NCBI GenBank assembly: GCA_020525365.1
Contig: JAIZOF010000001.1
Location: 744,502-808,501 of the forward strand
Source: Sulfurovum sp.
Lineage (GTDB): Bacteria > Campylobacterota > Campylobacteria > Campylobacterales > Sulfurovaceae
DNA: 64,000 bases
Direction of reading: 5' to 3'
The position numbers and the translations under genes were made by a program. Every line of letters starts with the position of its first letter. The stretch's first letter is position 1. Shown here piece by piece: positions 26,812 through 33,056 of the stretch. The notes under the pieces were generated by a model. It saw only the letters and a program-made list of their open reading frames with translations. It made no database searches and had not been told where the DNA came from.

Positions 26812-27465
26812 TTATTGATTAGGTTGGTTTACAATTTGTGCATAACCAGTTTCAGGCTGTATTTGAATGGTAAATGAGTCTCCATCAGATAGGGTAAAAG
26901 TGAATCCACAACTATTTCCTATATAGCTCCTGTGATTTGGTTGAGTGCTAGCACCATAGCCCTGATGTGGTCTGCCTAGATGATCAAAACCAATATGTGC
27001 TGTTGTATCACGACCACATGTGTTTTCAGCAAGATGTACACCATATTTTCTTCCTACTAAAATATTTGGACTTATATTGGAAGCATCACAGTTTCCACCA
27101 TTTGTCATATACATTGGTTTTCCATTAGCAGGGTCTATGGCAGACTCTTTCAATGCAAAAGTGCCCCTACTATTCATATTGTTATCGCTACCAATACGGT
27201 AAAAGAGTGTACCATCACTACATGTATTGAACATGATTTTCCACCATCTTTGTTCCCATTTTGAATTAGTTGACATATGCTTATTATCAAGTAGAGCAAG
27301 ATGCTGTGTATATCGAATGGCAGAGAGAATATTATCAGCAGCTTCTTGCTTGAAATCACGATCCATTCTTGACATAGAAAGTTTTGTAAGTATACCAAGT
27401 ATGACAATGACAATAACAAGTTCAAGTATAGTAAAAGCAGAATGTCTATATAGTTGCATCTTCAT
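26812..27465 (-). CDS. Prepilin-like protein (last gene of the pilin cluster)
   Basis: A 217-residue type IV prepilin/pseudopilin. A short basic leader (MKMQLYRHSA) is followed by FTILELVIVIVILGILTKLS, with the methylated Phe at +1 and Glu at +5 after the predicted prepilin-peptidase site. The globular part contains several Cys (CSDG, NCDAS, TCGRD, SCGFT) that could form disulfides. The fourth and last prepilin-like gene of the operon, separated by three bases from the one before. Minor-pilin role inferred. Confidence 0.87.
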   Translation of the reverse strand: MKMQLYRHSAFTILELVIVIVILGILTKLSMSRMDRDFKQEAADNILSAIRYTQHLALLDNKHMSTNSKWEQRWWKIMFNTCSDGTLFYRIGSDNNMNSRGTFALKESAIDPANGKPMYMTNGGNCDASNISPNILVGRKYGVHLAENTCGRDTTAHIGFDHLGRPHQGYGASTQPNHRSYIGNSCGFTFTLSDGDSFTIQIQPETGYAQIVNQPNQ

Positions 27466-27468
27466 CCT

Positions 27469-27951
27469 TTATATCTTCTGAACAGAACGTCTGTGCACAG
27501 TTAGCCATGAACCAGAAGGGTTTTCAGGATCCTTGTATCGTGCATAGACATCAATGAGTATGGTTAGTGGAGTACGTTGCGTAATAACATCCTTGGTTGT
27601 ATTGAGTCGGGTTCCATAGCATGAACCTAGGTTGATACTATTACCAATGTAGTTAATATTGACAGTGATTTGGTATCCATTGCCTGTTGCAGGAGTACCA
27701 ATGGTCCCATTGATGTCAGTAAGGCAATTTACTCCTACTCCATGGCGATTATTTCCTGTTACTGCCAGTATTGCGTACTCAGTATAACTTTTAGCGTAGA
27801 GCTCTGCTTGTTCATGTTGATACTGAGCAGTGGTAATCTTAACAGTTTTGCCACTAAGTGCCATTACAAATGCTGATATACTTCCCATGATAACAATGAC
27901 GAAGATAGCAGTAATCATGGAAAACCCATTTCTCATATGAATATATTGCAT
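27469..27951 (-). CDS. Minor pilin-like protein (PilX/MshP type N-terminus)
   Basis: A 160-residue protein with MRNGFSMITAIFVIVIMGSISAFVMAL at its start: a Gly before Phe as in prepilin cleavage, but Thr instead of Glu at +5, the pattern often seen in PilX/MshP-type members. The rest is a small domain with two Cys (NCLTD, SCYGT). It shares one base with the upstream gene and is part of the same transcript. Assembly into a pilus is inferred from context. Confidence 0.78.
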   Translation of the reverse strand: MQYIHMRNGFSMITAIFVIVIMGSISAFVMALSGKTVKITTAQYQHEQAELYAKSYTEYAILAVTGNNRHGVGVNCLTDINGTIGTPATGNGYQITVNINYIGNSINLGSCYGTRLNTTKDVITQRTPLTILIDVYARYKDPENPSGSWLTVHRRSVQKI

Positions 27952-28775
27952 CAGAATATAACCTTTTCTTTACAAGTATGTACAGTACTGTCGCCTATAG
28001 GCTCTTCTTTACAGATTTTTATACGCAAAGATCCTTCATTTCCTTTAAAGCGAAAGTTAGTAACATTTTTCAGCAACAAGCTTTTATTATCTCCGAGTCT
28101 AGCCATTGGAGTAGGCATAAAGTTATAGTAGAGAAAGAGATCGCCATTTTCTATGGTGATTGCATAAGAAGACCATGCCAGTTTGTAGCGTTCATACATA
28201 TTTGAACCACTAGGAATCCCACTACCATTTAGATGAATAGTTTGATTATCGATATTTGCAATTTGATAGAATGTTCCATCAGGAAAATAGATATATGTAT
28301 TGTTGGCAACAACACCACCAAGATTACTAACAACAGTGGTAACTAGGTTAAGGTTTGACCCTGGTGTTATAAGTTGTCTTTCAGATGAGGCTTGAAGGTC
28401 AATAAAGCCACTCCAGCCCGGTTTTATATTAGTATTAGTACGTGCTTCAAAACTATCTCCATCATAGGCAACCCACTGAAGGCGGTCAGAGTTTATACTA
28501 GTAATATTGTTAATGGGTACCAAAGTAGCACTTGTTCCTGTACCATTGTTTGCATAGACAGTACCAGGAATAGCATAGCGAAGACGATTAGCTATTTGGT
28601 TGAGAGCAAGTTCAGTTTTGATGGCAGCACGGTACTGGGCACGTTGAACAATGTAGCTCTCATAAACATTGGCAATAATTTCTGCACCAATAGAGGCAAC
28701 AATTCCAAGTATGACAGTAACAAACACTACTTCAAGCATAGTAAAAGCATAGCGCATATGTTGTGTTTCTCTCAT
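27951..28775 (-). CDS. Prepilin-like protein (MshO-like position)
   Basis: A 274-residue prepilin with a leader MRETQHMRYA and hydrophobic helix FTMLEVVFVTVILGIVASIGAE (Phe +1, Glu +5). The globular part includes a TLVPINNITSINSDRLQWVAYDG region and ends with several Cys-containing residues (CKEEP, HTCKEKVIF). Its place and size resemble MshO, a minor component of MSHA-type pilus operons. It overlaps its upstream neighbour by four bases. Confidence 0.82.
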   Translation of the reverse strand: MRETQHMRYAFTMLEVVFVTVILGIVASIGAEIIANVYESYIVQRAQYRAAIKTELALNQIANRLRYAIPGTVYANNGTGTSATLVPINNITSINSDRLQWVAYDGDSFEARTNTNIKPGWSGFIDLQASSERQLITPGSNLNLVTTVVSNLGGVVANNTYIYFPDGTFYQIANIDNQTIHLNGSGIPSGSNMYERYKLAWSSYAITIENGDLFLYYNFMPTPMARLGDNKSLLLKNVTNFRFKGNEGSLRIKICKEEPIGDSTVHTCKEKVIF

Positions 28776-29473
28776 GGCATGACTCTTTTTTCAAATTCAC
28801 GTCCACCAATATTGCAACTGAAAGCCTGAAGAGTGATATTTTTTCCATTTAGTTCCTTGGCAGCGCTAGTACTAGTAAGGGTAACAGTAAGACGTTTGAT
28901 ATTGCTAGTTAAGCCAGATGACAAGGTAGTGCTTGGTGCATAATGTACTAAAGGAGCACCATAGGTAGCATCATCGTTAATATAGGCAATAGTAGTGTTA
29001 ATTTGAACAGTTGTATTTTCGAGATAATCTTGTCCACCATTGCCACTAAGATTTACAAGGCTACTTGTGCTACCAAAATCATCAATATCATCAAGATCCC
29101 CTCCATCAGAACCAATGGCAGAAGCATTTAGCTCTATATTGCCACAAAGGAATGTACGTGAGTTGCTCCCAATAGGAACACCAAAACGTCGGTGATTAGT
29201 TGCCACATTAAGTTCACTGTCTCCATTGGTAACATGCAGTACAGGGGGGATACATGATGTATTGGCATCATTATCATCCCATGGATAGGTCATGACTATG
29301 TTTATTCGTGAGACTGCTTCATGAATACTTTCCTGCTGGAGCACTACGTTAGCACTTTGTGTTGCAGTGCTAATAAGCATGGGAGCAGACATCATTACAA
29401 TACCCATAATTACTAATGCAAAAATGAGTTCTATCATGGCAATGGCAGAACGAAAAGGGGATATATGTATCAT
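28772..29473 (-). CDS. Prepilin-like protein (MshD-like position)
   Basis: A 233-residue prepilin: leader MIHISPFRSA, then IAMIELIFALVIMGIVMMSAPM with Ile at +1 and Glu at +5. The mature domain has SRINIVMTYPWDDNDANTSC, a motif found in minor pilins that begin a pilus tip complex. It starts immediately after the stop of the big MshQ-like gene and overlaps the next gene by four bases. Confidence 0.82.
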   Translation of the reverse strand: MIHISPFRSAIAMIELIFALVIMGIVMMSAPMLISTATQSANVVLQQESIHEAVSRINIVMTYPWDDNDANTSCIPPVLHVTNGDSELNVATNHRRFGVPIGSNSRTFLCGNIELNASAIGSDGGDLDDIDDFGSTSSLVNLSGNGGQDYLENTTVQINTTIAYINDDATYGAPLVHYAPSTTLSSGLTSNIKRLTVTLTSTSAAKELNGKNITLQAFSCNIGGREFEKRVMP

Positions 29474-32400
29474 TTACCAGTCTAACCTTTCTGTTTTTTT
29501 GGTGTTGATATCATCACCTACAACATGACCAGTCTTTCCTTCTCCTGTCCAGTGTCCAGTTTTAAGGAAGCGAACACGATAGAGTGATGTAGGAATATCA
29601 TCATTATCTTTGTTGTAGATGAGCCAAAGGTTTGTATCGGTGGGCAAATTGGTTCTGAGGCCAATGCTAGCACTTACAGGTGCAACACCAGTAATGTTAA
29701 TGTTGCTATCGATACCTTTACTGGTAGTATTGATTTGCGGTGTAGTATCATTAATGGTTATGGTACCATTGGTAGGGTTTGGTGTACCAAGTTCAAGTGT
29801 AATGTTGCCATCATTTTTTGTTTGCATATCGTGCGATGTAGAGATAAACCAACGATAGTCATTTGTTGCAGCTGTCAAGTCAATACCTGGGCAATTGGTA
29901 GTGGAGATCCATTTACTGCAATAAACCTGTATCATAATAGGTGTTTTGATGCTATTTTTCGTATCGGTATATAGGTACTTTGTTGGTTTTATTCTTGCAT
30001 ACAAGAATGTAGCATCATGGGATGGTGATATAGAGTTATTGTTGTCTTCTGTATCTCCATCACTAATATTAAGATCAGTAATATGAAACTTAAATGGATT
30101 TACTGGCGCATTATATGCTCTATCAAAATTCAGCTGTACTCCAAGTAAGGCCGATCCATTATGGTCAGTATTAAAAACACTCTTAGGTATATTAGATGAG
30201 GGTGAAGCAATTACAACACTACTTCCTAAAGTAGCAGATCTATTTCCTCCATTGACCAGAGATGAGTCATCGTACCATCGGTACAGTATGCTTGAAAGAT
30301 TTCCAGGATTTATACTTGTGGGTGTTGTGTTGTTAATTTGGTAACCAATTGTGAAATGGGTTAAATTGTTTGCATAACATCCAGCATTATAGTTCTTAGT
30401 TGTTGTTTTCTGTTTAGCGGCTGCTGTGACATTTAATTCAAGTAGTGCAGTCATAAAGGTATTAATTTGATCATGTATACGATATAGGCTTTCATTGGCA
30501 GCAAGGTAGGTAAAATTTATATCAGTTGTTTCATGATGATCGTGTAGTTTAACATTTGTTACTTCAAAGTGATGAGGAATAAAAGATCTATTTACCACAG
30601 CACTTCCTATTTGACGATAGATGGTGCCCCAATAATTTTGGCTATCATGCGTTGTTTGATTAAAATCTGTATCATCAAAGTCAACGTAGGCAAAATCTGT
30701 ATTGGACTGTTCGGACAATAGAAGCTTTAGGTTGCCTATTTCACTGTAAGTAAGGTCTATTTTAGCCCTCCCATTAACGAAACTACCATGAACTTTTTTT
30801 AATGTACCAGTGATACAATTTGTGTTGCTTTCACTATAATTAAGTGAAGGAGATGCTCCTCCAATATTAATAGGTTCATTGAGGTGGTTTGGTAAATATG
30901 ATAATGGAAGGGAAGATGCTCCTCCAATATTAATAGATTCATTGTAGTTTAGAACATCATTTCCCTTACCATCAACAGCATGAATAATAAGAGGAAATGT
31001 CTCTCCTGCACGTATGATACTAGTATTGATATCAATTGTAAAGTGGTCTGGACGAACCGCAAAGCTATCACTACTGAATGTCTCTCTCCATCCAATAGCA
31101 TTAATTGTTGAATCAGGCGTTACATTGCGAGGGTCAATATTGGAACATTTTGTATGAGGATAAAGCGTGTAAGCAGTCCCATTGTAATCTGCGCAGAAGC
31201 GGAAGACAACTTTTGTATTTGCTACTGCAGAAGACACATTGAAAGATTTATTGCGTAAACTGTGTACCTCAAAATTGATAGGAGGGTTGTCAAGTGGTGA
31301 AACAATATACTCATACTCTTTTGGTTTACCTGCTTTTGGCTTTATTAATCCATAGTATATTTGTGTTGCACCATTTTTAGTTTCCAGTGCAGTTTGTGAT
31401 GCGTTTATACTTGCTAATGTAAGGCTAAATGAAGTATTGACTATCTTTGTGGAGATATTTCTGTCTGAAATATTTCTGTTAGTATCCCAAGCATCAAAGG
31501 GACCTGTTTTGTAACTTTGTACGCTACCAGATAGACAATTTCCACGTAGCCTTATCCAGCCTATTTCGTGTATATTATTTGCACCACCTGTACTTCCGGT
31601 AATAGCATATCGAACATAATCTGGAGTAGCACCTTGTTTATATCGTGAGTCCTTTGCATCAAATTGATTAATAATAGTACTCCAATTATTTCCTCTATCT
31701 AAACTTCTTTCCAGTTTAATATAGAGATGACTTGAGTCTCTTGCATCTACAGTCATTTTGTAGCGTCCAGAGTAGTAATTGTTACTATTTTTCTTGGCTA
31801 AAGGATTATTTCTTGACAATGTGACACCATCTAAATACTCATAACCTTGTTTTCTGTATACTGATGGTGTTCCATAACTATAGTTTCCGTCACCTCTAAT
31901 TGCAACTGCCCCAGGTCTAAATCCTACACCCCCATTTCTACCTTCACCGGAGCTACTGTAATTTCCATACTCATCTAATCCAAGACCTAGCCAACCCCCT
32001 TGAAATCCCACATGTGCACCATCACTGAAAGCATCTTTTTGTGCATACCCCAGCGATCCCCCCATTGCTCCTGGTTCAGGAGATTCTCCACCAACCTTTG
32101 AATCATACAGAATACTAGCAATACCATCTGCTCCATTCCTACTCCAGCTATCAGTACCACCATAGGCATAGTAATCAAATTCAATAATAATTAAATTTTG
32201 GTGTGTGGAAAATTTGTAGTTTCTGGTAATAGCAGAGGCAATCTTGTAGTCAGCAGGTGTTAGTCTTAAGCGGTTTTCTCCATGGACATTCACAACTCTT
32301 GGACTATATTCTTGGCTCCCAGATGGTAAGTTTGATTGCGAAAGTACTTTCCATCTACCGTTAAGTCCATTATCAAAATTATCTTCAAAACAGACAGATG

Positions 32401-32842
32401 CATCAGTCTGTTCTTTAATGAAGATTTTTGTACGGTTACCATCACCAATACATACCCCACCTGAAGAATCTGCTAGTTGTATGAAAAAATATTCATTAAA
32501 TTCTATTGCAGAATCATTCCATATTTGTATGGGAATTGTTGCACTTGTTGTTTGAGCAGCGATTGTGACTACACCATTAGAAATAGGTACATAGTCACCA
32601 TCCTCTGCTTTTGCGGTACCATCTTCAGTATAGTAGTGTACTCTAGCATCATGATTGAGAGCTTTAGATAGTTTGATGGTTATATTGACTGTTTTAGTGG
32701 TTCCATTGGCATAAATATCCTCGCTGACTTCATACTGTGTTTTATCGAACTTTGCCTTACTGCATGCATTTGCATATATGGTATCTAGTAGCAGAAAGGG
32801 AAACAACAGCCATATAAAAAGAAGTTTTAGATATTTTTGCAA
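29474..32842 (-). CDS. Large MshQ-like secreted protein (Calx-beta, lectin-like and DUF6701-type regions)
   Basis: A 1122-residue exported protein with a signal peptide (about residues 1-25). Regions in order: a Calx-beta-like domain at about 28-150 (EDGTAKAEDGDYVPISNGVVTI is its signature); a lectin-like concanavalin-fold region at about 155-440 (EFDYYAYGGTDSW..., NGADGIASILYD, YRKQGYEYLDG); a beta-rich linker; and a C-terminal region resembling DUF6701 of MshQ, ending in RVRFLKTGHWTGEG. It opens a five-gene operon with four prepilin-like proteins, so it could be a pilus-tip adhesin. Domain limits are approximate; ligand unknown. Confidence 0.8.
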   Translation of the reverse strand: MQKYLKLLFIWLLFPFLLLDTIYANACSKAKFDKTQYEVSEDIYANGTTKTVNITIKLSKALNHDARVHYYTEDGTAKAEDGDYVPISNGVVTIAAQTTSATIPIQIWNDSAIEFNEYFFIQLADSSGGVCIGDGNRTKIFIKEQTDASVCFEDNFDNGLNGRWKVLSQSNLPSGSQEYSPRVVNVHGENRLRLTPADYKIASAITRNYKFSTHQNLIIIEFDYYAYGGTDSWSRNGADGIASILYDSKVGGESPEPGAMGGSLGYAQKDAFSDGAHVGFQGGWLGLGLDEYGNYSSSGEGRNGGVGFRPGAVAIRGDGNYSYGTPSVYRKQGYEYLDGVTLSRNNPLAKKNSNNYYSGRYKMTVDARDSSHLYIKLERSLDRGNNWSTIINQFDAKDSRYKQGATPDYVRYAITGSTGGANNIHEIGWIRLRGNCLSGSVQSYKTGPFDAWDTNRNISDRNISTKIVNTSFSLTLASINASQTALETKNGATQIYYGLIKPKAGKPKEYEYIVSPLDNPPINFEVHSLRNKSFNVSSAVANTKVVFRFCADYNGTAYTLYPHTKCSNIDPRNVTPDSTINAIGWRETFSSDSFAVRPDHFTIDINTSIIRAGETFPLIIHAVDGKGNDVLNYNESINIGGASSLPLSYLPNHLNEPINIGGASPSLNYSESNTNCITGTLKKVHGSFVNGRAKIDLTYSEIGNLKLLLSEQSNTDFAYVDFDDTDFNQTTHDSQNYWGTIYRQIGSAVVNRSFIPHHFEVTNVKLHDHHETTDINFTYLAANESLYRIHDQINTFMTALLELNVTAAAKQKTTTKNYNAGCYANNLTHFTIGYQINNTTPTSINPGNLSSILYRWYDDSSLVNGGNRSATLGSSVVIASPSSNIPKSVFNTDHNGSALLGVQLNFDRAYNAPVNPFKFHITDLNISDGDTEDNNNSISPSHDATFLYARIKPTKYLYTDTKNSIKTPIMIQVYCSKWISTTNCPGIDLTAATNDYRWFISTSHDMQTKNDGNITLELGTPNPTNGTITINDTTPQINTTSKGIDSNINITGVAPVSASIGLRTNLPTDTNLWLIYNKDNDDIPTSLYRVRFLKTGHWTGEGKTGHVVGDDINTKKTERLDW
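30851..30944 (-). repeat. Two-copy repeat inside the MshQ-like gene (63-base offset)
   Basis: A 31-base element at 30851-30881 recurs at 30914-30944 with one base change, exactly 63 bases away, so in frame (21 codons). It encodes the doubled motif NIGGASSLPLSY / NIGGASPSLNYS in the protein. Confidence 0.85.
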
Positions 32843-33010
32843 TGCCCTACCTTTATTTTATATCCTTGTTTTTATCACAATCTAAAAAAGTACTAAATAA
32901 AGTTTGATATACTTATACTTCTTTTTTACTTTATTTTGCTAATTATTCAGTTTTTATTATAACAATATTTTTATTAAGAGATTTTTGGGTTTTCAGAAGA
33001 AGAGTGATCG

Positions 33011-33040
33011 ATATCAATATATTTTTCGATATATTGATAT
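33011..33040 (-). terminator. Long AT-rich hairpin after nhaC
   Basis: A perfect 12-base-pair inverted repeat (ATATCAATATAT / ATATATTGATAT) with a six-base loop lies 17 bases past the nhaC stop, upstream of the MshQ-like gene. No T-run follows on the minus strand. It may end nhaC transcription or be a protein-binding palindrome controlling the pilin operon. Confidence 0.45.
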
Positions 33041-33056
33041 TGTTTCCCTTTAAATA

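Follow-up and report, generated by a model that had tools for sequence, protein, structure and literature searches.

To judge from sequence comparison, five tightly packed genes in the genome of a Sulfurovum sp. are likely to constitute an operon that encodes the tip module of a type IV pilus of the MSHA (mannose-sensitive haemagglutinin) kind. Within the window, which is the whole 64,000-nucleotide stretch of DNA analysed here, five minus-strand ORFs lie head to tail at positions 26812-32842 (C1:771313-777343 in the coordinates of the genome itself) in the order Q-D-O-P-C. Q and D abut with a gap of 0 bases, D and O overlap by 4, O and P overlap by 1, and P and C are separated by 3, in agreement with the five genes of one direction and near-zero spacing described in an initial, sequence-only reading of this DNA. 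That reading had also recognised an MshQ-type protein with four minor-pilin-like proteins, and the latter can now be named MshD, MshO, MshP and MshC. The features of the block, in window coordinates, are as follows.

29474..32842, minus strand: mshQ-type adhesin gene, 1122 aa, with signal peptide, Calx-beta, L-type lectin and DUF6701-type C-terminus
28772..29473, minus strand: mshD-like minor prepilin, 233 aa; hhalign against gammaproteobacterial MshD 97.8, or 91.7 without the N-terminal helix
27951..28775, minus strand: mshO-like minor prepilin, 274 aa; top match gammaproteobacterial MshO, 96.6 at full length; globular part 7.8, weak but top
27469..27951, minus strand: mshP-like minor prepilin, 160 aa, Thr at +5; top match gammaproteobacterial MshP, 91.9, driven by the N-terminal helix
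26812..27465, minus strand: mshC-like minor prepilin, 217 aa; hhalign against gammaproteobacterial MshC 99.2, or 93.1 without the N-terminal helix
32456..32755, minus strand: Calx-beta domain, aa 30-129; PF03160, E 8.1e-12
31535..32404, minus strand: predicted L-type (legume-like) lectin domain, aa 147-436, from profile and fold; invariant residues in 21 of 21 relatives
29477..31534, minus strand: DUF6701-type C-terminal region, aa 437-1122, the part kept through genus and order
32843..33056, minus strand: intergenic region, putative operon promoter

Direct Pfam and NCBIfam searches named nothing in the window proteins apart from Calx-beta and weak prepilin matches. The intergenic region at 32843..33056 is probably the seat of the candidate operon promoter; a promoter scan ahead of mshQ returned sites no more numerous than in shuffled sequence. 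Between an antiporter gene and mshQ, window positions 33005-33045 hold an AT-rich palindrome (ATATCAATATA...TATATTGATAT), perhaps a terminator.

The remainder of the pilus genes

The sequence-only reading suggested a genome search and depended on type IV pilus or T2SS machinery being encoded somewhere; the search found such machinery in a genome of 1.47 Mb that is 99.9% complete. An MSHA assembly cluster, I-J-K-L-M-N-E-G, is located at C1:586335-595285, about 176 kb from the window block, its genes being named from their order, length, the MshL model TIGR02519 and the ATPase and platform families. All of the genes that are mandatory in the Denise model (MshE, G, L and M) are present, with MshL split. 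Two major-type prepilins occupy a separate locus (C1:569901-571075), where the N-terminal helix alone points tentatively to MshA/MshB. In addition, the genome contains two PilT-sized ATPases, a gene for a prepilin peptidase near C1:709.8 kb, and a separate T2SS-like cluster carrying five pseudopilins of its own. In G095, a genome from a different family of the order, I-J-K-L-M-N-E-G comes directly after Q-D-O-P-C, with two pilins next; because both sets are joined there, the window block appears to belong to the MSHA system and to be detached in its own genome. The initial proposal, a tip complex for a pilus whose genes lie at another site, is therefore right about the position of those genes, but the block seems to be the dispersed tip module of MSHA itself and not an extra complex on an unrelated pilus. 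G095 also has two MshL genes over the cut-off (at its C1:867485 and C1:1071495), of which only the first was seen linked to Q-D-O-P-C.

The block is syntenic in the genus, usually with hpf (S30AE) next after it, and its recurrence in this form in most of the relatives examined indicates that the five-gene arrangement is not due to chance; some loci of the genus lack mshC or have it at a distance. The MshD model was matched in 91 of 100 relatives, many of the weak matches covering the N-terminal helix only. When strong matches were considered, MshL and MshD co-occurred (68/18/3/11, p 5e-5), in a statistic that ignores relatedness and genome completeness, and the MshD model was matched in all 31 MshL-bearing genomes of the genus that are at least 90% complete.

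The state of these genes raises the somewhat unlikely alternative that the genome is decaying and has kept the module as a relic, with the five genes intact and the pilus dead through a broken mshL and a pilin locus in degraded DNA. An exact 118-bp tandem duplication at C1:590004-590240 (L043:7004-7240) splits mshL and breaks its frame, the 7.8-kb region around the major pilins is gene-poor (21% in ORFs of at least 100 aa, compared with 91-94% elsewhere), and the genome is small. However, the five window genes and seven other assembly genes are all open, and since the duplicate copies are identical, the duplication must be either very recent or an assembly error. With mshL broken, this strain may fail to produce the pilus, unless the assembly is at fault; the MshL of relatives is intact where listed over the cut-off. 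The gene-poor stretch (C1:565001-572800, L072:1-7800) contains both major-type prepilins and an apparent argG fragment (L072:6821-7066), and an apparently intact argG is found at L072:14004. Elsewhere, the relative G022 (C97, C257) gives a weak, GspD-level MshL match together with mshD and mshQ fragments containing stops, a possible case of whole-system decay.

The MshQ-type protein and its lectin domain

The MshQ gene starts with a TTG codon after AAGGTAGGG, and the protein has a Sec-type signal at its N-terminus. The Calx-beta domain noticed initially is significant (PF03160, E 8e-12, residues 30-129). The window MshQ gives no direct Pfam match to DUF6701, and the proposed DUF6701-type end finds indirect support in a full-length relative (L007) that exceeds the PF20419 cut-off and in a profile-profile match of residues 437-1122 to the gammaproteobacterial MshQ C-terminus (probability 97.8, E 1e-12). 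Pfam and NCBIfam searches of Q returned no PilY1-type domain.

Residues 147-436, the region first described as lectin-like, recur at about 37-57% identity in a few Campylobacterota and in the MshQ of gammaproteobacteria, and the profile of this domain matches legume lectins. Of the 21 members, 18 match the L-type lectin family PF18483 with E <= 1, the best of them at 7.9e-12, and the window domain itself scores 24.1 bits, under the curated cut-off of 78.3. Structure prediction of the 1122-residue protein, which the sequence-only reading had called for, yielded the carbohydrate-binding type of fold on which that reading had staked its adhesin: the predicted lectin part aligns with legume lectins, among them a mannose-binding one (Z 20, rmsd 2.9, 207 residues aligned), so that MshQ is modelled as containing a legume-lectin jelly roll. 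Long beta-proteins (C5, sperm axoneme, macroglobulins) made up most of what the first whole-protein fold search matched; these matches were dismissed as meaningless, and therefore only the lectin matches of that search were used. D239-G240, G261-G262 and D290-E291-x-G-N294 are invariant in 21 of 21 relatives; the key residues of the corresponding ADG, GG and DEYGN motifs are unchanged throughout, and in the lectin PAL both ADG and GG have aligned counterparts. By likeness to L-type lectins generally, these motifs are presumed to form the site for sugar and calcium. The window domain has its fold (at a Z of about 20) and the motifs ADG, GG and DxYxN in common with L-type lectins such as legume lectins, VIP36/ERGIC-53 and the SraP adhesin; it differs from them in sharing 12-16% identity and in sitting on a pilus adhesin as a putative ligand-binding domain.

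Among 200 genomes of the class, 6 carry the lectin domain, as do 11 of 119 genomes of a gammaproteobacterial order, and the same L-type lectin occurs in 11 of the 30 best-scoring gammaproteobacterial DUF6701 loci. Recent transfer of the domain between phyla is unsupported, as the tree separates campylobacterial from gammaproteobacterial sequences (support 83/84). Within the library searched, no literature linking MshQ to L-type lectins was found. Among relatives, the N-terminus of MshQ carries a triple Calx-beta, cadherin-like, Big_9, DUF11, CUB or lectin domain; as far as can be read from the sequences, these N-terminal domains are freely swapped between species within a module that is itself syntenic in the genus. 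Most relatives have an MshQ that lacks the lectin domain, so that pilus assembly cannot depend on it. At one locus (L052, genome G047), two MshQ-type genes lie close to a single pilin block, which suggests adhesin duplication.

It is possible, and we put it forward tentatively, that MshQ is a general, exchangeable receptor-binding tip in which a constant DUF6701 dock is combined with swappable adhesive cassettes, with the L-type lectin as the cassette that binds sugar in several lineages, spread over two phyla; this might explain the mannose-sensitive binding of some MSHA-type pili. A different role, as mainly an assembly or priming factor whose N-terminal domains are structural spacers and bind no true receptor, seems quite unlikely. 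It would fit the C-terminal location of the conserved part of MshQ and the finding that loss of mshQ in Vibrio cholerae, where MshQ is regarded as a putative adhesin, lowers surface MSHA and leaves retraction unaffected (PMC7096442). The N-termini, however, are built from a variety of folds already known from adhesion (Calx-beta, cadherin-like, CUB, L-type lectin), the residues of the presumed sugar and metal site of the lectin are invariant across its relatives, and swapping of mshQ in V. fischeri alters colonisation of the squid host (PMC4094467).

The four minor prepilins

Four of the five window proteins begin with a type III prepilin leader followed by a hydrophobic segment, as first read, and the one with Thr instead of Glu at +5 proves to be P; the residue before the cleavage site is Ala, not Gly, in three of the four. 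Each prepilin was aligned from 16-18 campylobacterial loci and compared by hhalign with alignments of gammaproteobacterial MshA, B, C, D, O and P and with the T2SS pseudopilins of its own genome. Every prepilin had a single, different best gammaproteobacterial match (C 99.2, D 97.8, O 96.6, P 91.9), so that the comparison with MshC/D/O/P/Q profiles proposed at the outset produced a one-to-one pairing of D, O, P and C alongside the MshQ C-terminus match. After removal of the N-terminal helix, D (91.7) and C (93.1) were still unambiguous and O retained its top match at a weak 7.8, while P no longer retrieved MshP, its best match being gammaproteobacterial D at 27. The MshO and MshP assignments are accordingly probable ones, drawn mainly from the N-terminal helix, gene order and length. 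Glu at +5 is absent from all 18 campylobacterial and all 10 gammaproteobacterial MshP members, which makes Thr at this position in P a family trait and not an oddity, and position, length and the Glu-less +5 further support P as MshP.

It is highly improbable that the minor prepilins belong to the type II secretion system of the genome with MshQ as a secreted substrate, a reading favoured by the existence of the T2SS-like cluster and by weak matches of two prepilins to GspH and GspK models, and membership in that GspC-K cluster was rejected because the cluster already has its five pseudopilins, because all four prepilins score higher against MshC/D/O/P than against its own GspG/H/I/J/K (by a smaller margin for P, at 92 for MshP and 78 for GspG), and because G095 joins the block to MSHA assembly genes.

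A model of the pilus tip and its relation to known systems

If the five genes do encode an MSHA tip module, the peptidase would cleave the prepilins, which would then assemble in the inner membrane into a short complex that primes the fibre, like the GspH-I-J-K and FimU-PilV-PilW-PilX sets, onto which the MshE motor would add the major pilin. MshQ would cross the inner membrane by means of its Sec signal, dock onto the priming complex through its conserved DUF6701 C-terminus and pass the MshL secretin with the growing fibre, so that Calx-beta and the L-type lectin would be displayed at the tip. In that position the lectin may bind, probably with calcium, a glycan on the surface of a host or other cell or in the matrix of a biofilm or particle, and the cell could be drawn in when the pilus retracts; exchange of N-terminal domains between species would change the target of the pilus. 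Both the tip location and the sugar binding of MshQ are what we infer from these comparisons. PilY1 and FimU-PilV-PilW-PilX of type IVa pili likewise comprise four minor pilins and one large non-pilin adhesin; the PilY1 system works alike, and the window Q differs from it in having a DUF6701-type C-terminus.

Compared to the gammaproteobacterial MSHA genes mshC-D-O-P-Q, the window block has the same five components by profile, shares the D-O-P order, and has in common an MshP without Glu at +5 and an MshQ with a DUF6701-type C-terminus. It differs in its overall order (Q-D-O-P-C, not C-D-O-P-Q), in its position beside hpf at about 176 kb from the assembly genes, and in a Q C-terminus that has diverged so far that Pfam does not match it directly. 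Strains of Shewanella are reported to differ in MshQ length (PMC7439477). MSH systems have been reported earlier in Epsilonproteobacteria and treated as multi-locus, in an account whose consulted portions mention neither MshQ, the tip module nor its domains for this group (Denise et al. 2019, PMC6668835). Given these reports and the standing of MshQ as a putative adhesin, the kind of system is already known; the present example is marked by a detached and reordered tip locus, with the L-type lectin as the sharpest testable point.

MSHA adhesion is named for its mannose sensitivity, and in the literature found the protein that holds the sugar has only been proposed, namely MshQ as a putative adhesin. 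An L-type lectin that keeps its presumed site residues, on a DUF6701-type MshQ, offers a small, expressible domain for a test of glycan binding. Sulfurovum indicum upregulates mshL on elemental sulfur, and flagella are reported to be absent from the genus (PMC10045233); in such a flagella-less group, pili of this kind could be a main means of attachment.
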